From a virus, in the IMG/VR virus record IMGVR_UViG_3300020180_000064, positions 1-35,456 of that record: a DNA stretch of 35,456 bases. One strand, 5' to 3'. Position 1 is the stretch's first letter. The number at the start of each line of letters is the position of its first letter. Below the pieces are notes generated by a model. It was not told the DNA's origin, did no database searches, and saw only the letters and a list, made by a program, of their open reading frames with translations. Below, piece by piece: positions 1-34,349 of this stretch. Both the position numbers and the translations under genes were made by a program.

Positions 1-71
1 GTAGTGAAGAGTTAGTTCAAGGGGCTCCGCAATTCCGACCAAGAAGCGATCGCCGAAAAAAAAGCCCGTGA
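1..71 (+). CDS. 3' end of a small gene upstream of terminase (partial)
   Basis: Reading frame 3 is open from the window edge and ends at TGA 69-71. The residues end in a basic tail (SEELVQGAPQFRPRSD then RRKKSP). The stop overlaps the GTG start of the large terminase in a GTGA arrangement, which is typical of translationally coupled phage genes. Position suggests a small terminase subunit or a leader gene, but too little is present to tell. If the window is circular, this is the C-terminus of the frame that starts at 35411, and the whole protein would be only 38 residues. Confidence 0.5.
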   Translation, partial: SEELVQGAPQFRPRSDRRKKSP

Positions 72-8589: not shown

Positions 8590-8948
8590 CCGTGTCGAAT
8601 CTGTTCTCCAAGGCATCGACCTGGCTTCCCGGAATGCTCGCCTCGGCGGACGGCGCTGACGTGACATACACACGGGGTGCGACTTCACGAACTGTCCCGG
8701 CCGTTGCCGGCCAAACTCTCAGTGGGTCCAACTCCGAAGGGCCGGTGAGGACGGAAGTCGGCGACGGTGATTACCTGATCCTGGCGAGCGACCTGGCGGC
8801 GTTCGGCACGCCTCAGATTGGCGACCGGATCACGGACGCGGTCGGCCTGGTGTTCGAGATCCAGGACACAAACACTGGTGACCCGGCGTGGAGATACACG
8901 GACACGACCCGGATCGAGTACCGGATTCACACGAAACGAGTGGCGTGA
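8586..8948 (+). CDS. probable head-tail joining (neck) protein
   Basis: The 120-residue product has a short N-terminal segment (NLFSKASTWLPGMLASADG) and then beta-rich sequence: VTYTRGATSRTVPAVAGQT, DYLILASDLAAFGTPQIGD, RIEYRIHTKRVA. The LASDLA..GTPQ.GDRI pattern is like that in small head-closure or adaptor proteins at this genomic place. GTG 8586 overlaps the upstream stop; GTG 8592 is an alternative two codons on. It presumably sits at the portal-tail interface, an inference from synteny rather than from a recognised domain. Confidence 0.6.
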   Translation: MTVSNLFSKASTWLPGMLASADGADVTYTRGATSRTVPAVAGQTLSGSNSEGPVRTEVGDGDYLILASDLAAFGTPQIGDRITDAVGLVFEIQDTNTGDPAWRYTDTTRIEYRIHTKRVA

Positions 8949-8951
8949 CCC

Positions 8952-9434
8952 GTGGCCAGCACCCCGACACTCACACTCTGCGACGGCCTGGTTACGGCGC
9001 TGCTCGCGGCCTGGACTGATGCCGCGATTATCGACGGCGTAACACGTTGTTACTTCAAGCGGATCGGCGACAGCGACCGGCCTGAGACGAAGTTGGGGGG
9101 ACGTCAGGTATACGTTTTCCCAACGGATTACGACAACGGGCCGGCAACGCGGGGTGAAGACGAATTTATTCACAATGTTTCAGTCCTTGTTGTCGAGCGA
9201 TACACGGATGCGGGCGACCCGCCGACAGCATGGATCGATACGCGGGTAGATTTTGTTTACGAACAGATTGTTCAGGGGTTCGATTTCTCGCACGACGGGC
9301 CGGCGAGCTGGAACAAAAAGCTGACCACGCTAAGCGCGGACGTGGCTGTCTGTGATGTCGAGAAACTGACCGGCGGCGGCAAGCTGTTTTATTCCATGAC
9401 AGAACTGGCGTTCTCCGAGATTCGGGACGCCTGA
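8952..9434 (+). CDS. probable tail terminator protein
   Basis: The 160-residue product lies between the neck protein and the tail tube, where siphophages encode the tail terminator that caps the tube. The sequence has an N-terminal helix (LCDGLVTALLAAW), a central strand region (GRQVYVFPTDYD) followed by FIHNVSVLVVERYTD, and a late helix-strand end (KLFYSMTELAFSEIRDA). This alpha/beta layout fits gpU or gp10-like terminators but is not diagnostic. The start is GTG 8952, just after the preceding stop, without a strong ribosome site. Confidence 0.55.
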   Translation: MASTPTLTLCDGLVTALLAAWTDAAIIDGVTRCYFKRIGDSDRPETKLGGRQVYVFPTDYDNGPATRGEDEFIHNVSVLVVERYTDAGDPPTAWIDTRVDFVYEQIVQGFDFSHDGPASWNKKLTTLSADVAVCDVEKLTGGGKLFYSMTELAFSEIRDA

Positions 9435-9447
9435 TAGGAGTGCTCAA

Positions 9448-9933
9448 ATGGCAGCGGCATCAGCGGTCAAAGTGGGCGTCGCGGGCGTTGTATACCGCAA
9501 CACCGGCACTTACGGAACACCAACGTGGGGGGGGATGGGGCTCGTGAAGGACGTCACCCCGTCGATGCCCTGGGACATGGTCGAAGCTGGCGCGCGTGAG
9601 ACTCGCGCGAAGTTGTACGCCAAGGCCAGGGCCGACCTGAGCGTCTCGATGACCATGCGTGCCGACGACGCGGACACCGCGTTTAATGCGATCGCCAACG
9701 CGTCACTCTCGCCGACGACTTTGGTGGATCTCATGTTTTTGGATGCGGCGATCTCGGTCGAAGGCGCTCGCGGGTTCCGCGCAGAATGGCTGATCAACAT
9801 GACCGGGCAACCGCAAGAAATCGACGGATCGATTTACGACTCCTTCGATTGTAAACCGGGTTGGTCGAGCAGCGGCTACCCGAAGACGGTAGTCATGGGC
9901 GCGAGTTCGGCCCCGACCTTCACCACCCTGTGA
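9448..9933 (+). CDS. tail tube (major tail) protein
   Basis: The 161-residue product begins after a good AGGAG ribosome site. It shows the tail-tube pattern: an N-terminal KVGVAGVVYRNTGTYGTP strand pair, GLVKDVTPSMPWDMVEAGAR, SVSMTMRADDADTAFNAI, and a final strand region. Similar 150-170 residue proteins form the hexameric rings of non-contractile tails. It sits directly upstream of the gp10-like and chaperone genes, as expected. The absence of a sheath gene nearby supports a non-contractile tail. Confidence 0.68.
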   Translation: MAAASAVKVGVAGVVYRNTGTYGTPTWGGMGLVKDVTPSMPWDMVEAGARETRAKLYAKARADLSVSMTMRADDADTAFNAIANASLSPTTLVDLMFLDAAISVEGARGFRAEWLINMTGQPQEIDGSIYDSFDCKPGWSSSGYPKTVVMGASSAPTFTTL

Positions 9934-9936
9934 CCG

Positions 9937-10362
9937 ATGCAATTCAACTTGAAACAGGCCAAGTCCGCGTTCTTTGACCGCAAGGCGGTTACTGACGCGA
10001 TTGACGCCGGAACCAGGAAGGTGCTCAGTAAGTTCGGCGCGTTCGTCCGCACGCGGGCCAGGTCATCGATCCGCACCCGGAAGAAATCAAGCCCGCCAGG
10101 GCAGCCGCCGAGTTCCCACGCCGGCGACTTGAAGCGGCTGATTTTCTTCGCCTACGACGCGGTGAGCAAGTCGCTCATCGTCGGGCCGATTCCGTTTCGC
10201 AAGGGCGAAGCGCCCCGACTGCTGGAGCACGGCGGGACAACGACTGTGAAGACCCGGTCGGGATCTAAGGTCAAGCACTATCGCGGCAACCCGTTCATGG
10301 AACCGGCGGCGAAGGCCGAGTTGCCAGGGTTCCGCGACCTGTTACGAGGGATGGTGAACTGA
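9937..10362 (+). CDS. HK97-gp10-like tail completion/minor tail protein
   Basis: The 141-residue basic protein contains FVRTRARSSIRTRKKSSPPG, PPSSHAGDLKRLIFFAYD and PRLLEHGGTTTVKTRSG. It ends with a NPFMEPA.....LPGFRDL stretch. The H..G.L...I.Y and RNPFMxPA elements are the hallmark of the HK97 gp10 group, which acts in tail completion. The stop overlaps the next start (TGATG at 10360-10364), so the two are coupled. Confidence 0.75.
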   Translation: MQFNLKQAKSAFFDRKAVTDAIDAGTRKVLSKFGAFVRTRARSSIRTRKKSSPPGQPPSSHAGDLKRLIFFAYDAVSKSLIVGPIPFRKGEAPRLLEHGGTTTVKTRSGSKVKHYRGNPFMEPAAKAELPGFRDLLRGMVN

Positions 10363-11060: not shown

Positions 11061-12437
11061 ATGGGAACTCAGAAACCGAGCGGGGGCGGCGGCAAGGGCG
11101 GCGAAATCCGCGCCGGCGGCGGCTTTTGGGAACTCAACCTTCGAGACAATCTCACCAAAGCCCTGGACAAGATCCAGGCCAAGGTGAGGTCGTTCGGGTC
11201 GATGCTCTCGAAGGTCGGAGGCGGCATGATGGGCGGCGGTGCCGCCCTCGGTGCCGGTCCCCTCGGTTTACTGTTCGGTGGTGGTTCACGTCTCGCGGAG
11301 ACTGCCCAACTCGCCCGACAATTCCAAGTCCCGATCAAGCTCATGGGGGCGTTTCAACACGCTGCCGAACGCGCCGGCGTGTCAGTCGGAGAGGTGATGG
11401 ACGACACGCGCGGCCGGTTCAAGGATTTGCTCGGTTCCGCGCCGCTCGTGAATCCGAAGGAAGCGGAAGCTGCACTCAAGATCCAAAACGATTTCAAGGA
11501 CTCGATCCGCTCACTCCAAGACGCACTCACGCCGATCCTCCAGATTCTCGCGCCGATCGTCAGTAAGGTCGCCGAGTTCGTGAAGGTTAACTCTGGCGGG
11601 GTGCGGGTACTCGGTGCGGTCGCTATCGCTATCACGGGAATCGGGGTCGCCGCGAAACTCACGGGTTTATCAGTCGTGGGGATGTTTGCCGCGATCACGT
11701 CTCCGGTCGGCATTGCCGTGATAGCGATCGCAGGGCTCACGGCATTGTTCGTCACCAACACGGAAGCCGGGAAAGAGATGGCTTCTACCATCGGCGAATC
11801 CTTCCGGGGGCTCGGCGAGATCTTCGGAGAAACTTGGGGCGGGCTGGTCGAGGCGGTCAAGGCCGGTGATCTGGAAGGGGCGTTCGAGGTGATGGCGAAC
11901 GGCGTCCGGGCGATCTGGTTTGAATTGCTAGTTCAATTGGGGAAGGGCTGGAACGCATTCGTCTCCTCCATCGCCAAAATCATCAAGGACAATCCGGCAC
12001 TTGCTCCCGCGCTCGGCGGCGGCATCGGCCTTGTTACCGCTGGACCGGTCGGGGCACTGATCGGGATCGCCGGCGGTGCCGGTGTGAGCGCGCTCGATCT
12101 CGAATCGATGCTCTCGGTGGACACCACGGCGGCGGTTGGCCGGGCCAGGCTTGGCCGCGATCGGCTCAAAAAAGCGATCTCGGCAATCAAGCAAGGTGCA
12201 CCCGGAATGGGAGACGAGGAAGCCAAGCGGTTCGCGGATTACGGGATGATGGGCGGTCGACTGAATGCCGGTTTCGCTGCGGTAAAGGGTGGGTTCAACG
12301 CAAGCTCATCCCTGGGACAGTTCGGGTACGGCGACAAGGTGTCCGTGGAAACTGAGATTCAAAAAGCTATTCGCGAGAACACGAAAAAGACGGCCGTTGA
12401 GCTGGCGAACCTGGTGGTGGCACTCCAACTGAGGTGA
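11061..12437 (+). CDS. tail tape measure protein (short)
   Basis: The 458-residue protein sets tail length. It has a Gly-rich start, a small helical head (LTKALDKIQAKVRSFGSML), the QFQVPIKLMGAFQHAAERAG element typical of tape measures, and two hydrophobic stretches. The stretches are about 190-230 (VLGAVAIAITGIGVAAKLTG and following) and 315-345 (ALGGGIGLVTAGPVGALIG). By the usual rule of about 0.15 nm per residue, the tail would be short, near 70 nm. The start follows a GGGGG tract. Its position directly after the chaperone pair is diagnostic. Confidence 0.85.
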   Translation: MGTQKPSGGGGKGGEIRAGGGFWELNLRDNLTKALDKIQAKVRSFGSMLSKVGGGMMGGGAALGAGPLGLLFGGGSRLAETAQLARQFQVPIKLMGAFQHAAERAGVSVGEVMDDTRGRFKDLLGSAPLVNPKEAEAALKIQNDFKDSIRSLQDALTPILQILAPIVSKVAEFVKVNSGGVRVLGAVAIAITGIGVAAKLTGLSVVGMFAAITSPVGIAVIAIAGLTALFVTNTEAGKEMASTIGESFRGLGEIFGETWGGLVEAVKAGDLEGAFEVMANGVRAIWFELLVQLGKGWNAFVSSIAKIIKDNPALAPALGGGIGLVTAGPVGALIGIAGGAGVSALDLESMLSVDTTAAVGRARLGRDRLKKAISAIKQGAPGMGDEEAKRFADYGMMGGRLNAGFAAVKGGFNASSSLGQFGYGDKVSVETEIQKAIRENTKKTAVELANLVVALQLR

Positions 12438-13033: not shown

Positions 13034-14233
13034 ATGCTCACCCGTACACTGCTCCCGATCGTTCTTGCGCGACCTTCGCGACCGTTCACGCTGACCGTGG
13101 ACACCACGAAGGCCGGGAGCGCGTCAGACACGTTCGTCCTGCCGTTGCCGTCGTCTGGAACCTACAACTACTCGGTTGATTGGGGCGACGGTGTTATCGA
13201 GTCATACACCACCAACACGTCAAAGACGCACGTCTACGCGGTCGCTGGCGTCAAGACAATTCGTATCACCGGCACGTTCCCGCGAATCTTTTTCAACAAC
13301 GCAGGTGATCGGCTCAAATTGACGGGGGTGGCGCTCGGGAGCATTGTTTGGGGTAGTTTTGATAGCGCATTCTGGGGGTGCTCGAACCTAGTGACTTTTG
13401 ATGCGACTGGCTCGAATACCGCGTCCGTCACGAACATGTTCTCCATGTTCCGTGAATGCACCGCGTTCAACCAGAGCGTATCGAGCTTCAATACCGCAGC
13501 AGTTACGTTGATGTCGGGTGTGTTCTATGGCTGCTCCGCATTCAACCAGAGTGTATCGAACTTCAATACCGCTGCCGTTACGAACATGGATTCCATGTTC
13601 CTCGGCTGCACCGTGTTTAACCAGTCCGTATCAAACTTTAATACAGCCTCGGTCACGAACATGGGGGGCATGTTCCAGGGTTGCACTGCGTTCAATCAAT
13701 CGGTAAGCAACCTCAACACTTCTGCTGTCACGACGATGGGATCCATGTTCTTCGGATGCACCGCGTTTAACCAGTCCGTATCAAACTTTAATACCGCCTC
13801 AGTCACAAACATGGCGGGTGTGTTCTACGGATGCGCTGCGTTCAATCAATCGGTAAGCAATCTCAACACTGCTGCCGTTACGAACATGGATTCCATGTTC
13901 CTCGGCTGCACCGTGTTTAACCAGTCCGTATCAAACTTTAATACCGCCTCGGTCACGAACATGGCGGGCATGTTCCAGGGTTGCACTGCGTTCAATCAGG
14001 ACGTATCCGGGTGGTCGATTGTTGCAATGACGAACGCCACTTTAATGTTCACCAACTCCGGGTTTGCCAAAGCAAACTACGACCTTTTGCTCCCCGCGTG
14101 GGAGGCTCAGGTCGAGCGGCCGAACGTCACGTTCTCGGCAGGTTCGGCACGATATTCCGCAGGTGCCCCAACTACGGCGAGGGCAGCGCTGGTATCGTCT
14201 GGGTGGATTATCACTGACGGCGGCACACCGTAA
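13034..14233 (+). CDS. tail-associated BspA/DUF285 repeat protein with PKD-like domain
   Basis: The 399-residue protein has an N-terminal PKD-like beta domain ([30 protein letters not shown]). Eight 25-residue repeats of the BspA/DUF285 leucine-rich type follow, consensus [25 protein letters not shown], and a capping unit ([15 protein letters not shown]). Such repeats are known in surface adhesins of Bacteroidetes, mycoplasmas and protists. In this place the protein is probably a receptor-binding or tail-tip adhesin. There is no signal peptide, which fits a virion protein rather than an exported one. Units 3-4 and 7-8 are nearly identical in DNA, showing recent internal duplication. Confidence 0.8.
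13571..13998 (+). repeat. 75-bp coding repeats with recent 300-bp-spaced duplication
   Basis: Segments 13571-13698 and 13871-13998 differ at only two of 128 positions (13645 and 13664 against their partners), at a spacing of exactly four 75-bp units. Other units diverge more, so this copy was made or homogenised recently. The period keeps the reading frame, so unit number can change without breaking the protein. Confidence 0.9.
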
Positions 14234-14324
14234 CGCGCGTCATAAACGACCAATAACTTTTAGATGGCTTCTGATGGATCTTTCCGTAACGAAACCGATT
14301 TCTCAAAGCCGAGTGCGGGGCGCC

Positions 14325-14999
14325 GTGACCACCCGGCCCGCCGCCACACTAATTGAATTGCTCGTCGTCATCGCAATCATTGCCATCCTGGTCGGCCTGC
14401 TCCTGCCTGCCGTGCAGAAGGTGCGGGAAGCGGCGGCGCGGCTGAAGTGCCAGAACAACCTGAAGCAACTCGCCCTCGCCTGCCACGGCCACCTGACCGC
14501 CATGGACCGGTGGCCGGCCGACCCGTCGGCGTACCCGGCACCCGGGGGTTGGCGGGTGGTGACGCAGCCGTGGTGGGAGGACGTTCGACTTATCACCTGC
14601 CCATCACGACTGAGTGTCGGGTTCGCCGACTACCACGCCGCGTATGTCGCGTCCCACTCGCCGGGCGACGGACTCATCGTGCCGGGGCAGCGTGGTGTGC
14701 CTGCGGCGTGGTCCGGCCGTGGGCTGTCGGAGACGGTTCTGGTCGGGCACAGCAGCACAACCGGCGGCTCCATGTTCATGGCGTGCTGTGGGAGGAACTG
14801 GTGGACCGCCGGTCACGATGTCCGCGCCACAGTCCGCAGTACGGGCAAAACCCCGGCCCCGGACGCGATACCCTACAACGGTGACTCGGGGTTCGGAGGC
14901 CCGCACACCGGCTGCCCGGTGGCGATGGGTGACGGGAGCGTGCGTGTGGTCGCCTGGGGTGTGGACCCGGCACTCTGGCGTGAGATGGGTCAGCGATGA
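14325..14999 (+). CDS. DUF1559-type prepilin-like protein
   Basis: The N-terminus is a class III/type IV pilin-like signal: [20 protein letters not shown], then [20 protein letters not shown]. This is the hallmark of the large DUF1559 family of planctomycete pseudopilins. The C-terminus has the processing-associated His-to-DG motif ([17 protein letters not shown]), with eight residues between His and Asp where nine are usual. GTG 14325 gives 224 residues and a short leader; the longer in-frame ATG at 14274 is possible. The Gly-Phe normally at the peptidase cleavage site is replaced by Ala-Ala. The gene is visibly more GC-rich than its neighbours and splits tail genes, so it looks like an acquired host gene. 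It would be membrane-inserted or exported in the host. Confidence 0.85.
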
Positions 15000-17395: not shown

Positions 17396-17463
17396 TAATC
17401 TAAAGAGACGAAGACTGTGATAAACTGACCCTACCTATCTGAATGATTTTCGGAGGATTGCAA

Positions 17464-18171
17464 ATGCGATCACCGCTGTTTTTAATGACCCTCTTCGCGT
17501 TCACCATGCCCGTCCCGTTTGTACTCTCCGCGCCTCCGACTGTTGTCGAAGTTCCGCGCGGCGACCCCGCGAAGTGGCTGGAGGTGCGGGCGCCGAAGGG
17601 CCGAATCCTGCGGCTCTCCGCGGAGCCTGCTTCGAAGTGGCTGCTGATTGACGAGGAAAAAGCAGACCTGTTCCCCTGCGACGCGGGGAAGTTCGCCGAC
17701 TTCGCGAGCGACGAGTCAGGCCGCTACAAGGTGATTGTGACATCGCCCGAAGGGACATCTGCGAGGGTGGTTATCGTGGTCGGAGACGGTGGACCATTGC
17801 CGCCCGGACCTCTGCCTCCAGTCGATCTGCTTGCCGACCGGCTCAAGGCTGCCTACGACTCTGACCCCGAAAAGATCGTCATCAAAAGACAGTCGCACGC
17901 CAAGGATCTGGCCAGCGTTTACCGCCTCGTCGCCAAATCCGCTGGTGATCCCACCTTCTCAACCGCAGGCGATTTCATCGCGTTCGCTCGCAAGTCCGCA
18001 GCCGAGATGGTGGACGCCGCGAAAGGGCCGCGGTGTCTGTCCGGTGTGCGTGACGAAGTGTCGCGGGAACTGGGCACGATCTTCCCCGCTGATGGGCCGC
18101 TGACCGACGACCAGCGGAAGCGATCGGCGGCACTGTTCTTACACCTCGCAACGATCCTGGAGGCGTTCTAA
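17464..18171 (+). CDS. secreted protein with Ig-like and helical domains
   Basis: A clear signal peptide (MRSPLFLMTLFAFTMPVPF, then VLSA) precedes a beta-rich domain, residues about 25-115: WLEVRAPKGRILRLSAEP, ASKWLLIDEEKADLFPCD, GRYKVIVTSPEGTSARVVIV. A Pro-rich hinge (GGPLPPGPLPP) and a helical C-terminal half follow. ATG 17464 follows a perfect GGAGG site and is preferred over 17443. The stop overlaps the protease gene start (TAATG). It opens a run of five exported or membrane genes, and I infer an envelope-directed function. No enzymatic motif is visible. Confidence 0.65.
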   Translation: MRSPLFLMTLFAFTMPVPFVLSAPPTVVEVPRGDPAKWLEVRAPKGRILRLSAEPASKWLLIDEEKADLFPCDAGKFADFASDESGRYKVIVTSPEGTSARVVIVVGDGGPLPPGPLPPVDLLADRLKAAYDSDPEKIVIKRQSHAKDLASVYRLVAKSAGDPTFSTAGDFIAFARKSAAEMVDAAKGPRCLSGVRDEVSRELGTIFPADGPLTDDQRKRSAALFLHLATILEAF

Positions 18172-19340
18172 TGGGTCGCGCTACAGATTGGGATGGACGT
18201 TTCAAGTCCTTACTTTTTGGTGGAGGTGTCGGGCTCGTCGTGGCCGTGGTATTGCTTGGAGTAAGGTCCAAGCCGCCCATCGCCCCGATCGCGGAGCCGC
18301 TCCCACCAGAGCCGGAACTGCTAATCACGACCGGTTGGTTTCCGGACGCGGAAGCGAACGAAGTCGATCTGGCCACGGCCCGGTTCCAGTCGTTTGCTGA
18401 CACACCGGCCGCTCAGGTTGTGATGGGCGAGTTGCCGAAGGAAGTGTTCCTTTGGAAGGCGATCGAAAAACTCACAGGTAAACCGACGCCGCTCAAGGAT
18501 CAGAACCCAACCGGAGCGTGTGTCGGGTTTGGGACTGTGAGCGCGGTCGAGCGAACCTTGGCAACCGAGATCCTGAGCCGTGGCGGCGACGAGAGCGAGT
18601 TCGCGTTTTACTCTGAGGAAGTGGCGTACGCCGGGGCAAAGGTGCAGGGGTTCAGAAGCCTCGGTGGTTCGGTCAGTCGATTTGACGGTGCTTCGGATGT
18701 CGGCGCGGCCGCGTGGCTAACAAAGGTCGGTGGGCTGGTTCCGAAGGGAAAATACGGGCGTTGGGATCTGACGGAGTACGACCCGACCCGCGCCCGGTCA
18801 TGGAACCTCTCGGGCGTTCCGGAAGAGCTGATCGAGATCGCCCGGCGGTTTCCGGTCAAGGACAGTGTGCGAGTCATGAACTGGTTGCAGTGCAAGCAGT
18901 CACTCGCCAGCGGGTATTCCGTGGCTGCGTGTGCGACCTGGAAATACAGCGAACGGCGCGACGCAAACGGCGTGGCCGCTGACCTCGTCAGCGGTTGGAA
19001 CCACTGCATGGCGATTGATGGATACTACGTCGCCGCGGACGGCCGAGAGTATGGGCACGTCGAGAACAGTTGGTCCAACGTCCCGGACAAAAAAGGCGTC
19101 CGCACCGGCCAGGCGTATCACACTGGTCCGGTTGGATGGGGAAACCCAACCACGGCGGGCTTCTGGGCTACGGCTGAGAGTCTGGACCGTGCACTGCGCC
19201 AGGGTGGCAGTCGGGCATATTCCGGTGTCACCGGGTTCCCGGCTCGCAAGCTCCCCTGGAATCTTTTTATCCTCGCCCCGAAGCGAGACCGAACCCCGTT
19301 CGCCCTGTTTGCAAAGGAGATCCCATGCCTCGCTTTCTGA
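18171..19340 (+). CDS. membrane-anchored papain-like cysteine protease
   Basis: The 389-residue product has an N-terminal membrane anchor (about residues 14-31, LLFGGGVGLVVAVVLLGV) and a Pro-rich linker. A papain-fold (C1-like) peptidase domain follows: Gln111 and Cys117 in QNPTGACVGFG, His278 in SGWNHCMAIDG, and Asn299 in GHVENSWSN. All four active-site residues are present in the right order and spacing. The catalytic domain would face the periplasm. No peptidoglycan hydrolase is visible elsewhere, so it may act in envelope disruption at lysis or in processing a surface protein; this is inference. It starts at TAATG with GGAGG upstream and overlaps the next gene by 16 bases. Confidence 0.82.
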   Translation: MGRATDWDGRFKSLLFGGGVGLVVAVVLLGVRSKPPIAPIAEPLPPEPELLITTGWFPDAEANEVDLATARFQSFADTPAAQVVMGELPKEVFLWKAIEKLTGKPTPLKDQNPTGACVGFGTVSAVERTLATEILSRGGDESEFAFYSEEVAYAGAKVQGFRSLGGSVSRFDGASDVGAAAWLTKVGGLVPKGKYGRWDLTEYDPTRARSWNLSGVPEELIEIARRFPVKDSVRVMNWLQCKQSLASGYSVAACATWKYSERRDANGVAADLVSGWNHCMAIDGYYVAADGREYGHVENSWSNVPDKKGVRTGQAYHTGPVGWGNPTTAGFWATAESLDRALRQGGSRAYSGVTGFPARKLPWNLFILAPKRDRTPFALFAKEIPCLAF

Positions 19341-19996
19341 TCAACAGCCTCCTCGTCATCGTCGCAATCATCGGGATCGCGGGACTCGCGTCCGGCGATG
19401 ACAAGGCCGACCGCGACCGTCGAGCGAAGGCCGCAGTCGCCGTGGCCAAAGCGATCGGAGATCACTCGCCGAAGGTGGTCGTAGCCCCAGCGCCGCGCAA
19501 GACCGAACCGAAAAGTTACGCGACCGGCGGCAAGGAGGCGATCCTCGACCAGTCACCGCTCGTGGTCTACGTGTCGTGCGAGGGGCCGAAGGTGGAAGGT
19601 GCGATCACGTGTTTCGTGTCGGCCAAAACATTCGGCGAAGTGACCGGGCCAGCTGTGGTGATCGGCTACCCGGTCGGAGATCGATTGTTGATTGAGAAGA
19701 CCCTGCCGTGCCCCGTGCCCGCGGCTGATCTGAGGAAGGCTGTCGATGCTGCTGCGAAGAAAATCCGCGGCACTGAACCCAAGGCTATGCCGTCGGGACT
19801 GCCGAAGCCTCTCGATACGCAGGTCAAGAAGACTGGTTGCATTTGCGGTCAGTCGTGCCAGTGCCCCGAGGGGAGATGCCCGGGTCAGTGCCCTGTCGCC
19901 ACCAAGCCCGATCCTGTTGTGGTCGGGTACCGATACCAGAAGGTCTGCAACGGAAATGGGACGTGCCAGATTGTCACGGTCCCGATCTACCGCTGA
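19325..19996 (+). CDS. secreted Cys-rich protein
   Basis: A signal peptide or N-terminal anchor (MPRFLINSLLVIVAIIGIAG, cleavage probably near LASG-D) leads a 223-residue product. The middle (SPLVVYVSCEGPKVEGAI) carries a Cys pair. A cluster of six cysteines at about 172-189 (CICGQSCQCPEGRCPGQC) and two more near 208 and 214 suggest disulfide knots or metal binding in the periplasm. AAGGAGA lies six bases before the ATG. It starts inside the protease gene, so expression is coupled. I do not recognise the family. Confidence 0.65.
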   Translation: MPRFLINSLLVIVAIIGIAGLASGDDKADRDRRAKAAVAVAKAIGDHSPKVVVAPAPRKTEPKSYATGGKEAILDQSPLVVYVSCEGPKVEGAITCFVSAKTFGEVTGPAVVIGYPVGDRLLIEKTLPCPVPAADLRKAVDAAAKKIRGTEPKAMPSGLPKPLDTQVKKTGCICGQSCQCPEGRCPGQCPVATKPDPVVVGYRYQKVCNGNGTCQIVTVPIYR

Positions 19997-20008
19997 ACGA
20001 GGTGATCC

Positions 20009-20491
20009 GTGTGCGCACTCGTCGTCATCTTCGTGATTGCTCCTGACGTTGGCCGTCTCGGTGCCGACGATTTTGGTGTTCGCGAAAGGGCCGAGGAGCG
20101 TTTGAAGAAACTCGGCCCGCTTGCGTGGGGCGCTCTGCTCCACGCGGAGAGGTCGGGAGATGCCGAGTCGCGATTTCGCGCAAGGCGTCTGCTCAGACCG
20201 TACCGGTCGCATGTCCAGGATGTGCGAGTCGCTGTCCTGGTGCGAAGCCGCTGGCCGCCCACCGAATCGCAAATGGCGGAATTGTTCCTCGACGACGAGT
20301 TTCGCAGGCGGGTTTATTTGCGAATGATCGAGGCCGGATGCACCGATCACGAAGCGTGGTATCTTCTGCCGGAACGCCTCGAGGCGAACTGGTGGGGGAA
20401 TATCCCGCCGATTCTCCTGATGTGCGCTTCGCTGTCCGGTTGCCGCGCACGACTCGGATACCACAAGGTGGGATGGCCGTTTACCAATTGA
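20009..20491 (+). CDS. exported HEAT-like protein of planctomycete type
   Basis: The 160-residue product starts at GTG 20009 after GAGG. A short hydrophobic N-terminus (CALVVIFVIAPDVGRLGA) may be a weak signal. It is followed by DDFGVRERAEERLKKLGPLA and RFRARRLLRPYR, which match the single HEAT-like unit frequent in exported Gemmata and Pirellula proteins (D-F-x-V-R-E-x-A-E-x-x-L-x-x-L-G). The rest has Trp-rich segments (EAWYLLPERLEANWWGNIPP). In the host, such units are thought to be protein-interaction modules. Its place between the Cys-rich protein and the holin-like protein ties it to the envelope module. Confidence 0.55.
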   Translation: MCALVVIFVIAPDVGRLGADDFGVRERAEERLKKLGPLAWGALLHAERSGDAESRFRARRLLRPYRSHVQDVRVAVLVRSRWPPTESQMAELFLDDEFRRRVYLRMIEAGCTDHEAWYLLPERLEANWWGNIPPILLMCASLSGCRARLGYHKVGWPFTN

Positions 20492-20521
20492 TAACAATGT
20501 TCGTTTAACAAAGAGGTAGCA

Positions 20522-21178
20522 ATGTCTGATTTGACACCGAACACGCTTGGCGACAAAACTGTTGGTGATGCTGCTCCGATCCCAACCCGAGTCCCACCAC
20601 CGACGCCGAAAGCGGAGCCGTCGGGGGCAAGCTGGATACGCGATGAATATCAGCTTCTCCCGGATTGGGCGAAGACAATCGCGATTTTGATGATCCTCGC
20701 GCTGGTGATCTACGGCAGGTTGAACAAGCCAGATTCGCAGCCGGCGGTGGTGGTAAACCTCCCGGCAGCAGGGCAGTCGTCAGGGTCGCAGGATTGGACG
20801 CCGGTAACGAGTGCTCAGCCCGTGGCGGCGGCAGTTCGCGAACGCCCAGGCAAACGACTGTTCGCGAAACTGATTCGCGCCCGGCTTGCTACGAGGCTCC
20901 AGAAAGACGGGTTCGCGCTCGTCGGTGGCAACTCCAAGCCGATCAGTGAGGAAAAGGCGTGGGAGTTGGTCGAGCAACTCGACGATGATACCGTGGTTGC
21001 TGCGGCGGTGCAGTCGAAAGCGGAAGGGCTTGGTGACGGCACTTTGCTCGACAAACTTGGGAACGTGATCCAATGGATCATAGACCACAAGGAACAAATC
21101 CTTGCCATCATCAAGGTTCTGATGACGCTGCTTGCATTGTTCGCCGACGATGTCAGCGGAACAGGGAACCGAATGTAA
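20522..21178 (+). CDS. holin-like membrane protein
   Basis: The 218-residue protein has a Pro-rich cytoplasmic N-terminus and one strong membrane segment at about 48-66 (WAKTIAILMILALVIYGRL). A soluble helical middle (LFAKLIRARLATRLQKDGF) and a hydrophobic C-terminal helix (EQILAIIKVLMTLLALFAD) follow. Size and topology are not those of a textbook holin, but it is the last gene of the late operon and directly follows exported and protease genes. AGAGG precedes the ATG. It could be a holin or spanin analogue, or a protease partner. Confidence 0.5.
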   Translation: MSDLTPNTLGDKTVGDAAPIPTRVPPPTPKAEPSGASWIRDEYQLLPDWAKTIAILMILALVIYGRLNKPDSQPAVVVNLPAAGQSSGSQDWTPVTSAQPVAAAVRERPGKRLFAKLIRARLATRLQKDGFALVGGNSKPISEEKAWELVEQLDDDTVVAAAVQSKAEGLGDGTLLDKLGNVIQWIIDHKEQILAIIKVLMTLLALFADDVSGTGNRM

Positions 21179-25455: not shown

Positions 25456-25678
25456 TCTGAACCACACGGGGAGGCGGGGCGGGGCTGGGCTCGGCTCGGC
25501 AGGGCCTGGCACGGCACGGCCTGGCAAGGCAAGGGCACCAAAGGTGCGTTCGCCGGATGGGCGTATCGTGGATCATTCCCACGACGGTGAAGTGGGCCAG
25601 GCCAGGCGTGGCAAGGCTAGGCACGGCAGGGCTTGGCATGGGCACCAAAGGTGCAAGTTTTAACAAAGGGGTCTAATC
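25456..25678 (+). repeat. GGC-rich short-period repeats and duplicated 15-base motif
   Basis: This 223-base intergenic stretch has two blocks (about 25470-25530 and 25592-25650) built of GGCNN pentamers such as GGCAC, GGCAA, GGCAG and GGCTC. Each block ends in the same GGGCACCAAAGGTGC motif, whose GCACC/GGTGC arms form a small hairpin. No convincing gene: minus-strand frames here only translate the repeats (Pro-Cys-Gln-Ala-type). Confidence 0.75.
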
Positions 25679-25879
25679 GTGGTCAAACTCGAATTCATCG
25701 ACCGGGACAATTCGTTTGCCTTGTCGAGGTGCGGGCGGTTCGATTTGATCCGCAGTTTTACGTTGGAATACTGGCAAGGGTTCGATTGGGACACGGGCCG
25801 ATCGGTGCGTGGGACCAGAGGAGAGTGTGAGCAGTGGTGTGGCGGACAGCTTCAATCTGTGGAGATCGAACGTGTTTGA
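25679..25879 (+). CDS. small hypothetical protein
   Basis: The 66-residue product starts at GTG 25679, after AAGGGG, just past the repeat block. It is rich in aromatic residues (MVKLEFIDRDNSFALSRCGR, then FDLIRSFTLEYWQGFDWD) with two late Cys. The 3' end overlaps the next gene by eight bases. Family not recognised. Confidence 0.5.
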   Translation: MVKLEFIDRDNSFALSRCGRFDLIRSFTLEYWQGFDWDTGRSVRGTRGECEQWCGGQLQSVEIERV

Positions 25880-26264
25880 GAAATGGAAATGGGCATGGAG
25901 AGATGGGTTTGCCCCAGCGCTCTCCACCGAAAATCTCGAAGCGCTTGCCGAGGCGCTGCGGTCCGACGACCCCCGATTATTGCAGGGCAGCACGACCACA
26001 CCGCCACCCCTTATGTGCGTGCAGGACTGGCCAGTCGAAGCGGCCTGTGCTCTCGGGTACTGCGGATGGCAGACCGACGATTTGAAAACGGTCGGTCAGG
26101 TGGAAATGTTCTTCGCCCGCCTTTGCTTCGAGGCTGATCAGCGTCTCGGCGGGTTCGCCGAGTGCCGGGTGTTTCTGAACTGGTTCGACAACACCCCCCG
26201 GGCCGAGATGCTGTCGGCGCTGTTGGAAGAAGTCGAATTGACTCTGGCATCGCGGGCGGCGTGA
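25872..26264 (+). CDS. hypothetical early protein
   Basis: The 130-residue product starts at GTG 25872, with GGAG eight bases upstream; the frame is open further but lacks a better start. It is helical: MFEKWKWAWRDGFAPALSTE, ALAEALRSDDPRLLQ, and a C-terminal RVFLNWFDNTPRAEMLSALL stretch ending in a charged helix. Similar F-x-N-W-x-D-x-T-P-R endings occur in small phage proteins upstream of replication genes. The exact role is unknown. Confidence 0.6.
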   Translation: MFEKWKWAWRDGFAPALSTENLEALAEALRSDDPRLLQGSTTTPPPLMCVQDWPVEAACALGYCGWQTDDLKTVGQVEMFFARLCFEADQRLGGFAECRVFLNWFDNTPRAEMLSALLEEVELTLASRAA

Positions 26265-26307
26265 GGCGTGATTTGGTGTACCTGACGAGCAGTGGAGACA
26301 ACCTGGC

Positions 26308-28329
26308 ATGTCAGTTCAGACTTTACACAGCATCGCGACCAGATACGTGAGGGTCGGGTTGTCCGTGATACCGATCCGGGCGGATGGGTCCAAGGCTCCG
26401 GCGTTAGCTAAAGGTGATGTCGAGCAGTACCGCGAACGGTTTCCAACTGTCGATGAACTGTCCCACTGGTTCGACAACGAGAGGGCTGTTGGGCTGGCGA
26501 TTGTCTGCGGGAAGGTCAGCGGAAACCTTTCCGTGATCGACTTCGAGAGTCAGCAGGCGTGGTCGAATTGGGTGAAGCGGATTGAGGAACTTGGGCTGAC
26601 CAGCATTTACGCGGGCTTCCCAATTGTCCAAACTCCGAAAGGTGGTCGGCATCTCTATTGCCGAATTCGTGAGGGTGCAACTTCCGGCTTGAAATTGGCG
26701 ATGCGGTCGAAGACGGAAACGCTCATCGAGATCCGGGGGCAGGGCCATTACGTTCTCGCGCCGGGGTGCCCACCAGCCTGTCATGAGTTGAATCGGATAT
26801 ACGAGATCGAGTCCGATGGATGGCTGGACAGCGGTGACGCCGACGTACAGATTTCCCTCGAAGACTACGAGGCGTTCGTCAACGTCGCGAAGGAGTCCAA
26901 CGAGTATGTTCCACACGAGCGGTTTAAGTCCCCTGCTCCTGCCCAGTCCGATGCTCACGGCGACCGACCGGGGGATGAATTTAACCGTCGCGGCTCGTGG
27001 CTAGACATCCTTGAACCGCACGGCTGGAGGGTTGACCGCACATCGGGAGACGTGACTTATTGGACACGACCAGGGAAGTCCCGTGGCGTGAGTGCGACAA
27101 CCGGGAAGTGCCACACGGAAGGTTCGGGCGATCTGCTTTATGTTTTCACGGGTAATAGTGAGTTTGAACAAGACGCCGCGTACAGCAAGTTCGCGGCCTA
27201 CGCGATTCTGAACCATGCTGGCGACTGGTCTGCGGCGGCAGGGGCTTTGGTTGACGCCGGGTATGGCAGGCACGAACCGACATTGGTGTTCCCACCGATC
27301 GCGGCTGTACCCGCAGAAGGTGGTCTTCCTGACGATGGTATCGTCCCCGATTATACGTTCGCGACGAACGCGGATCTCAAACAATACGACCTCGGCATCA
27401 AGTGGGTTTGGGAAAGGTGGTTCCAGAAATCAACCGTTAATTTACTCTCCGCAGAGGGTGGGGCGGGCAAGACGAGGTTCATGCTCGATTTGTGCCGCCG
27501 CGTACACCTCGGTTTGCCCTGGCCGGACGGAACGCCAACGACACCGTGGGAAAACCCATATCTGGCGATGTGGGTCGCCGGCGACAGGAACCACGGCGAA
27601 CTGCTCGACAACTCCCAGGCTTTTGGGTTCGGCGATCGCATCTCTTACAGCGGTTCCAAAAAAGACCCGCTCGGCGGGATCACCCTGAACACCCGCGAGG
27701 ATTTCGCCACGCTTTACCGCCGGGTGAAGGCAGCCAAGCCGATGTTTTTGGTCGTGGACACGGCGGGCGGGACGACATCCTACAACCTTGCGAAGCAAGA
27801 GGAGGCCCGGACGTTCTTCGCTCCGCTCAGCGACATGTCGATGCGGCTTGGGTTGTGCGTTGTGGTCATCACCCACTTGAACGCGTCAAAAAACACCTAC
27901 GGAAAGCGCGCCGAGGAGCGGGTGCGAACGGTCATACGAATCACCTCGGAGAACCGCGAGGCGGAGACCAAGCGGCGGATAGAAGTCCAGAAGTCGAACG
28001 CACTATTTCCGGAACCTCTCGGGATGACGTTGCAGTCCGACCGGTGTGATTACGACACGTCTCCGCCAGACGCCCCACGAGGGTTCGGAGACCAGGCAGA
28101 AAAGAGCCCGAGCGATGGTCCACCGACCCAGGTGAAATTGTGCATGGATTGGTTAACGGAAAGGCTCGCCGACGCTCCAGTTCGAGAGAGTGTTTTGCGA
28201 TCAGAAATCGACCGCGAATCCAAATTTACGACCGACGTATTCTACAAAGCTACGAAGAAGATGAGTATAATCAAAACTACGTCGCAAGGCTTTCATTTCA
28301 TGGGACTTAGGAAGGAAGTTATAGCTTAG
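26308..28329 (+). CDS. primase-polymerase fused to RepA-like helicase
   Basis: This 673-residue protein is the likely replication initiator. The N-terminal ~190 residues are an AEP-type bifunctional primase-polymerase domain: SVIPIRADGSKAPAL, acidic VIDFES near 75-80, GGRHLYCR near 111-118, and IEIRGQGHYVLAPG. A RecA-like AAA domain (AAA_25/RepA type) follows, with Walker A SAEGGAGKT (about 380-388), Walker B FLVVDTAG (about 479-486) and VVVITHLN. A small C-terminal winged-helix-like tail may bind origin DNA. The usual DxD of the primase appears as DFE, a variant worth noting. It would let the phage prime and unwind its own DNA. SSB-like and RusA genes follow. Confidence 0.87.
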   Translation: MSVQTLHSIATRYVRVGLSVIPIRADGSKAPALAKGDVEQYRERFPTVDELSHWFDNERAVGLAIVCGKVSGNLSVIDFESQQAWSNWVKRIEELGLTSIYAGFPIVQTPKGGRHLYCRIREGATSGLKLAMRSKTETLIEIRGQGHYVLAPGCPPACHELNRIYEIESDGWLDSGDADVQISLEDYEAFVNVAKESNEYVPHERFKSPAPAQSDAHGDRPGDEFNRRGSWLDILEPHGWRVDRTSGDVTYWTRPGKSRGVSATTGKCHTEGSGDLLYVFTGNSEFEQDAAYSKFAAYAILNHAGDWSAAAGALVDAGYGRHEPTLVFPPIAAVPAEGGLPDDGIVPDYTFATNADLKQYDLGIKWVWERWFQKSTVNLLSAEGGAGKTRFMLDLCRRVHLGLPWPDGTPTTPWENPYLAMWVAGDRNHGELLDNSQAFGFGDRISYSGSKKDPLGGITLNTREDFATLYRRVKAAKPMFLVVDTAGGTTSYNLAKQEEARTFFAPLSDMSMRLGLCVVVITHLNASKNTYGKRAEERVRTVIRITSENREAETKRRIEVQKSNALFPEPLGMTLQSDRCDYDTSPPDAPRGFGDQAEKSPSDGPPTQVKLCMDWLTERLADAPVRESVLRSEIDRESKFTTDVFYKATKKMSIIKTTSQGFHFMGLRKEVIA

Positions 28330-33623: not shown

Positions 33624-34349
33624 ATGATCGCATTTCATGGCGACGTGGCCGTTAAAGACAAATACCTTTCACGAGTCCGCGCCCATGCGGCGGCGGATGA
33701 AATTGTGAAGGGGAAATATTGGCAAGGGGGAAAGGGTTGCGCTGTCGGCTGCACAATCCATAGCGACAATCACGCGGCGTACCAGATCGAGTTGGGGCTA
33801 CCGGAATGGCTGGCTCGACTTGAAGACACGCTATTCGAGAACCTACCGAACGACTTGGCAAAAACATTCCCGGCGCGGTTCCTGAACGCGATTCCGGTCG
33901 GCAAAGACGTGGAGTCTGTCAGGTGGAGATTTTCTTTGTATTTGCTTGAGGAAAACACTTTGCTTGTCAAGTCTTTGCGGATTGATGTTGGTGTGAAGAC
34001 ACAGGTGCTCGCAGCGATTGGGGAGGTGATGGAGGCGAACCGGAACGCGATCGCAAGCGGCGTGTGGAATGCGGAGGTGGCGGCGAGGCTGATAGAGGTG
34101 GCGCGGGCGGCGGAATCTGCGGCGCGGGCTGCGGCGCGGGCTGCGGCGCGGGCTGCGGCGTGGGCTGCGGAAGCGGCGACGTGGGCTGCGGCGCAGGCGG
34201 CGAGGGTTGCGGGGTGTTCGGTGGTGCATGCGGCGTGTTCGGTGTCGCGGGCGGCGGAAGCGGCGCGGACTGCGGCGTGGTGGGCTGATGGGTCGTCGAC
34301 GGCGTACATCCGGTACTCGGAGAAGCTGCTGGAACTTCTGGCAGACTGA
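33624..34349 (+). CDS. phage protein with Ala-rich repeat domain
   Basis: The 241-residue product has an N-terminal domain, KDKYLSRVRAHAAADEIVKG and GCAVGCTIHSDNHAAYQIEL, then GLPEWLARLEDTLFENLPND. This is a recognisable family of phage and bacterial proteins with H-x-H/Cys-rich signature but no known function. A long Ala-rich helix at about 160-225 (ARAAARAAARAAAWAAEAAT) follows. The DNA there is built of near-perfect 12-base GCGGCGCGGGCT units, prone to in-frame slippage. ATG 33624 follows ACGGAG. Confidence 0.7.
   Translation: MIAFHGDVAVKDKYLSRVRAHAAADEIVKGKYWQGGKGCAVGCTIHSDNHAAYQIELGLPEWLARLEDTLFENLPNDLAKTFPARFLNAIPVGKDVESVRWRFSLYLLEENTLLVKSLRIDVGVKTQVLAAIGEVMEANRNAIASGVWNAEVAARLIEVARAAESAARAAARAAARAAAWAAEAATWAAAQAARVAGCSVVHAACSVSRAAEAARTAAWWADGSSTAYIRYSEKLLELLAD

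Follow-up and report, generated by a model that had tools for sequence, protein, structure and literature searches.

A run of five genes in IMG/VR virus record IMGVR_UViG_3300020180_000064 occupies positions 17464-21178 of the + strand and encodes, in order, an exported protein, a papain-fold cysteine protease, an exported cysteine-rich protein, a small exported protein and a membrane protein. I propose that these genes probably, if by no means certainly, constitute a host-lysis cassette, in which the papain-fold protease stands in for a murein endolysin and is directed against a wall of disulfide-linked protein. Planctomycete walls were long described as made of protein. The stretch of DNA that was analysed, here called the window, is a linear record taken at its full length of 35,456 bases, whose completeness as a genome is not proven. 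To judge from its terminase, its portal and a fusion of protease and capsid protein, the phage is a tailed one. The features on which the argument turns are these:

17464-18171, + strand: exported partner protein with a signal peptide; ATG at 17464, alternative ATG at 17443
18171-19340, + strand: papain-fold cysteine protease, 389 residues; its start overlaps the stop of the preceding gene
18198-18266, + strand: membrane anchor of the protease, residues about 10-32, by hydropathy
18501-18503, + strand: Gln111 of the protease, catalytic residue
18519-18521, + strand: Cys117, catalytic residue
19002-19004, + strand: His278, catalytic residue
19065-19067, + strand: Asn299, catalytic residue
19325-19996, + strand: exported cysteine-rich protein, 223 residues; 16-base overlap with the protease gene
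20009-20491, + strand: small exported protein, 160 residues; GTG start, hydrophobic N terminus
20522-21178, + strand: membrane protein, 218 residues; two hydrophobic segments, residues about 45-63 and 193-211

All five genes lie where the first-pass annotation of this DNA had placed them, overlapping or closely spaced and directly after the tail genes. Each has a purine-rich stretch 5' of its start codon, and the G+C content by codon position follows the same pattern in all five as in the structural genes.

The catalytic residues of the protease come in the Gln/Cys/His/Asn order of peptidase family C1. The same annotation had called Gln111, Cys117, His278 and Asn299 intact, and so they are: the four are invariant in an early alignment of six homologues and again in a later one of 71 sequences, throughout which Ser300 and Trp301 are identical as well. 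Such invariance, despite low overall identity, is far beyond chance. The Pfam profile Peptidase_C1 (PF00112) matches the window protease with an E-value of 0.0018 and 18.9 bits, under the cut-off of 20.7 bits, and that cut-off is exceeded by the cassette proteins of two relatives (G033 and G001). An AlphaFold model of the protease (predicted template modelling score, pTM, 0.68) matches papain-family structures with Foldseek E-values down to 2.7e-9, the best being xylellain, and with a VIA Z reaching 17.7 over some 200 residues. Judged by this model, the protease has the papain (C1) fold, and the matched structures are C1 enzymes that cut protein.

An N-terminal anchor is found on 49 of the 71 proteases. 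By the positive-inside rule, 39 of these would have their N terminus inside and none outside, while ten allow no decision; topology was judged here by hydropathy and charge alone, without a dedicated predictor. Since the charge rule favours an inside N terminus, the catalytic domain should face outward wherever the anchor exists, and in the anchored proteases it is probably extracytoplasmic. Near most of the unanchored proteases (those of L098-L105 and of large phages), small membrane proteins are encoded.

How widespread is the arrangement? Used as single queries, neither the window protease (against viral and genome contigs) nor the capsid protein (against viral contigs) found any relative. 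Relatives were reached through an alignment of two terminases, which led to 80 related phage records. A homologous protease is encoded by three of the 45 terminase relatives that were searched, and another two have a Peptidase_C1 protein of a different kind. With four aligned proteases as the query, IMG/VR yields no fewer than 500 relatives, a lower bound that is not dereplicated, and a scan of genome contigs yields at least two loci. Four family proteases have no relative among 50,697 GenBank phage records (tblastn, E 0.01), and because none of the four matched there, the family seems to be almost wholly uncultured.

Looked for in related phage genomes, the cassette recurs there and in planctomycete chromosomes as well. 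Its order in relatives is a small membrane protein, an exported partner, the protease and then, often, a cysteine-rich or thioredoxin protein. Across the 35 non-redundant loci surveyed, a partner that is exported or anchored usually comes before the protease. A small membrane protein lies at most three genes upstream of the protease at 26 of 31 scorable loci, as against 18% for random genes drawn from the same loci (never above 36% in 2000 draws). In phages L147-L149, L156, L159 and L160, which are AT-rich and 76-142 kb long, the protease is unanchored and adjoins a signal-peptide protein.

The first-pass annotation saw no peptidoglycan hydrolase in the window, and a profile search of every frame bears this out: no endolysin rises above the Pfam cut-off. 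The 148 open reading frames (ORFs) of all six frames contain no peptidoglycan hydrolase family, the sole such candidate being the Peptidase_C1 match already described, in a full Pfam table of 20 families with E-values up to 0.01. Family C71, the pseudomurein endoisopeptidases, is absent from those 20, which rules out membership and not a similar mode of action; its absence from the fold matches listed for the protease excludes nothing. There is likewise no peptidoglycan hydrolase family, by Pfam, among the 108 ORFs of three homologous phages. Across 47 related records of 25-142 kb, Phage_lysozyme, Amidase_2, SLT, M15_3 and M23 gave zero matches, and bacterial control genomes gave matches in each of the six hydrolase-family searches, the sixth being NLPC_P60. 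Those of the AT-rich phages of 76-142 kb that were searched match none of the six. In five relatives that lack the protease (G002, G003, G022, G028, G029), no endolysin replacing it in its slot could be recognised by eye. As far as such profiles can tell, the case for absence over the 47 records is strong but not complete.

The host of the cassette, to judge from the genes around it, is the planctomycetes. In a metagenome-assembled genome of 6.3 Mb, the contig with the cassette also carries planctomycete cytochrome PSCyt1/PSD1, DUF1501 and sulfatase genes. DUF1559 (SBP_bac_10) is a planctomycete hallmark; that genome holds 25 matches to it, and none of 14 control genomes has any. The protease was found in 13 of 392 genomes of the same phylum, several times on contigs of 5-8 Mb. 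In one closed contig of 6.43 Mb (G417), an element of about 26 kb that includes the cassette lies between host genes, with genes for terminase, portal, capsid, tail tube, minor tail and lectin-like proteins. No lysis family appears in the complete PHROG table for this element (24 families), nor among the 25 of 33 Pfam families listed for it, and no integrase or replication gene was recognised in it (L231, L220). Elements of this type might be defective prophages or resemble gene-transfer agents. Cassette regions similar to that of G417 occur at L219, L221 and L178 of other planctomycete genomes. The window has a DUF1559 gene of its own, for a pseudopilin-like protein, inside the late operon (14064-14999, + strand; true start probably near 14270), and this gene is possibly host-derived. 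Relatives and DUF1559 together suggest that the window's own phage also infects a planctomycete.

Thiol chemistry enters the argument through the gene that follows the protease. The protein encoded at 19325-19996 has 11 cysteines, eight of them within 45 residues. In other phages an exported thioredoxin-type protein may follow closely on the protease; it does so in 9 of 53 cassettes as against 0 of 1072 background windows. The latter are equal-sized windows from the cassette phages and not all independent, so the Fisher value of 6e-13 is indicative only. Compared with Pfam, five of seven such proteins match thioredoxin families above a cut-off, one falls below it and one (L229) has no match. 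One exported protein (L222) unites a cysteine-rich stretch and a thioredoxin domain, and by eye a second (L224) has the same look of a fusion.

The window's cysteine-rich protein begins with a hydrophobic segment followed by RAKAAVAVAKA. This module, in the general form of a hydrophobic segment and then RAxAAVxxA, is common to that protein and to the cysteine-rich and thioredoxin proteins of other cassettes. It occurs in 12 of 53 cassettes and in 2 of 1072 background windows, one of the two being itself a cassette locus; the pattern was written after examples had been seen, so the count describes the family and is no blind test. A profile comparison between the thioredoxin proteins and the 19325-19996 protein gives an E-value of 0.00068, as a single comparison, with a probability of only 27%. 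Common descent of the two is suggested by these likenesses. The 19325-19996 protein has no Pfam thioredoxin match, no thioredoxin-type motif is present in the window's cassette, and the similarity is confined to the N-terminal module. A count of cysteine clusters across cassettes was not used, since it includes wrong-frame ORFs.

The exported partner, read from the alternative start at 17443, would consist of a signal peptide, an immunoglobulin (Ig)-like beta sandwich at about residues 33-113, a proline-rich linker and a five-helix bundle at residues 129-241. Its AlphaFold model has a pTM of 0.47 and a mean predicted local distance difference test score (pLDDT) of 75.5. The fold search returned Ig-like matches only, and for that reason no claim is made that the protein is a propeptide inhibitor. 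In L098-L105, L119, L148, L161, L163 and L178 the gene immediately before that of the protease encodes a homologue of the partner. Homology of the window's partner to that of the larger clade is unsupported (hhalign probability 3.6%), and the two are treated as positional analogues.

Two first-pass labels for the end of the run did not survive. The 20009-20491 protein had been called HEAT-like, a name that no profile supports; the protein has no family match in Pfam. The last protein had been given one membrane span and has two hydrophobic segments instead. Its topology makes the 20522-21178 product a holin candidate; it matches no holin family, despite the two segments and the nearby protease gene.

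What is known of the host wall gives such a cassette a plausible target. Most Planctomycetales have no peptidoglycan-synthesis genes, and preparations of their walls contain cysteine-rich YTV proteins (PMC8567305); in P. limnophila most of the peptidoglycan-synthesis genes are dispensable (PMC10632474). According to the model, the protease would be tethered to the inner membrane, a minority of relatives doing without the anchor, and its extracytoplasmic catalytic domain would cleave structural proteins in the wall of the planctomycete. Disulfide links of cysteine-rich wall proteins would be attacked or exchanged by the exported cysteine-rich protein or, in other cassettes, by an exported thioredoxin. 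The Ig-helix protein, likewise exported, would serve as a partner in assembly or control, with the two-segment membrane protein as the holin. The first-pass suggestion that lysis, or release through a proteinaceous wall, relies on proteolysis gains from the recurrence of the cassette, from the lack of an endolysin over the cut-off and from the planctomycete host, and a mechanism for it is offered by the predicted orientation of the anchor and by the recurring exported thioredoxins. Lysis itself I infer, and the position of the cassette is not constant.

Several observations weigh against a lysis cassette of this kind. Peptidoglycan was later found in some planctomycetes (PMC4432640). One reported planctomycete phage exits its host chronically, without lysis (PMC10945688), and therefore lysis must be demonstrated. 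Ten terminase relatives show no protease of the family. In L219-L221 the cassette comes before the terminase, and in L226-L227 it separates the head genes from the tail genes; the first-pass remark that the run ends the late operon, where siphophages keep lysis genes, holds in the window insofar as the run follows the tail genes, but is only partly general. None of the cassette membrane proteins is a confident holin (best PHROG holin match, E 0.019). Thioredoxins are found in a minority of cassettes, the window's not among them. NLPC_P60 has one weak match, below the cut-off, in the 47 related records; many of these records may be fragments, and only six hydrolase families were covered in the full set.

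The same genes could serve entry and not exit, the protease and its partners being carried on the particle, or processing tail proteins, so as to open the protein wall inward. Their place directly after the tail genes in the window, or between head and tail genes in L226-L227, speaks for this, as does the resemblance of the partner's Ig-like domain to Ig domains of phage tails, including that of the lambda tail tube protein. But N-terminal anchors or signal sequences, present on 49 of 71 proteases and on the neighbouring proteins, point to products that reside in the host envelope during infection, and I consider a role in entry unlikely. A protease that is membrane-anchored, predicted to face outward and present in integrated elements of planctomycete chromosomes might also remodel the surface, cutting host surface proteins and thereby blocking superinfection or altering the lysogen, with no lysis at all. 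It is hard to reconcile this with a protease that is broadly conserved, and linked to small membrane proteins, in phages that differ greatly from one another, those of 76-142 kb among them, or with the lack of any other lysis enzyme over the cut-off in these genomes, and I would count it as improbable.

Then there is the possibility that the protease is a peptidoglycan endolysin in disguise, a papain-fold enzyme that cuts the peptide cross-links of planctomycete peptidoglycan. NlpC/P60 and CHAP cysteine peptidases serve as lysins elsewhere, and papain-fold proteins of other phages in BFVD are annotated, for example, as 'peptidoglycan binding-like' or 'N acetylmuramidase (fragment)'. PeiW and PeiP are further cysteine peptidases that act as lysins (PMC4592898). 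Set against these precedents, the fold matches of the window protease are protein-cutting C1 enzymes with the full Q/C/H/N set, Pfam finds no wall-binding domain in it, and many planctomycetes are without peptidoglycan-synthesis genes (PMC8567305). A disguised endolysin seems to me very unlikely.

Some features of the window and its relatives stand apart from the question of lysis. Between the tail genes of the window, at 13034-14233 (+ strand), lies a gene for a DUF285 (BspA-like) protein with near-identical repeats, possibly a receptor-binding protein, which has a relative in G034 (oriented 8724-9992). The window (1-68) and about 20 of the records L002-L080 start no more than about 150 bases before the large terminase gene, and this shared start is either a physical genome end or a recurrent break in assembly. 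Long alanine-rich repeat proteins are encoded at the early end, in the window at 33624-34349 (+ strand) and in G029 at oriented 25470-26348. In L093, an ORF at 11380-11847 (+ strand), four to five genes downstream of the G001 papain cassette, resembles by eye a CAP/SCP-domain protein.

The protease has the fold and the Gln/Cys/His/Asn order of peptidase family C1 (papain, cathepsins; xylellain, 3ois; Clostridium Cwp84, 4d59). It differs from the known members in being encoded by phages, mostly with an N-terminal anchor, within a conserved cassette, and at 15-21% identity over structural alignments. A C1 enzyme that acts on a protein surface layer is already known, for Cwp84 processes the S-layer. 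Holin-endolysin cassettes likewise place small membrane proteins next to the enzyme that attacks the wall, but they lack the cysteine-rich or thioredoxin partner and the exported Ig-helix partner found here. Signal-arrest-release endolysins have an N-terminal anchor, as do most proteases of this family, where it is joined to a papain-fold domain and not to a murein hydrolase. Three BFVD proteins of uncultured Caudovirales (A0A6J5TCZ4, A0A6J7XQB9, A0A6J5QDM8) have a papain fold too and are tabulated without host or function. PeiW and PeiP of methanogen viruses are alike in principle, as viral peptidases that lyse cells without murein hydrolase activity, but they cleave the isopeptide bond of pseudomurein, in archaea (PMC4592898). 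In the literature searched there is no description of such a cassette, and the words 'papain' and 'planctomyc' are absent from a survey of viral lytic proteins. As far as that literature goes, a cassette with cysteine-rich or thioredoxin partners in planctomycete phages is undescribed.

Hydrolysis of peptidoglycan is the standard exit step of bacterial double-stranded DNA phages. The chances are about even that widespread uncultured phages of planctomycetes, and elements derived from them, have dropped murein hydrolases in favour of a cassette that combines a protease with thiol chemistry against a disulfide-linked protein wall. If this is true, then there exists a lysis system of bacterial phages whose substrate is protein, not peptidoglycan. 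It would bring evidence from the side of the phage to a dispute, now decades old, over which part of the planctomycete envelope bears the load, and it makes that dispute testable: do proteolysis dependent on C117 and reduction together open planctomycete cells? The cassette would also provide genetic handles for a phylum whose phages have hardly been cultured, and a marker gene by which to find them in metagenomes.

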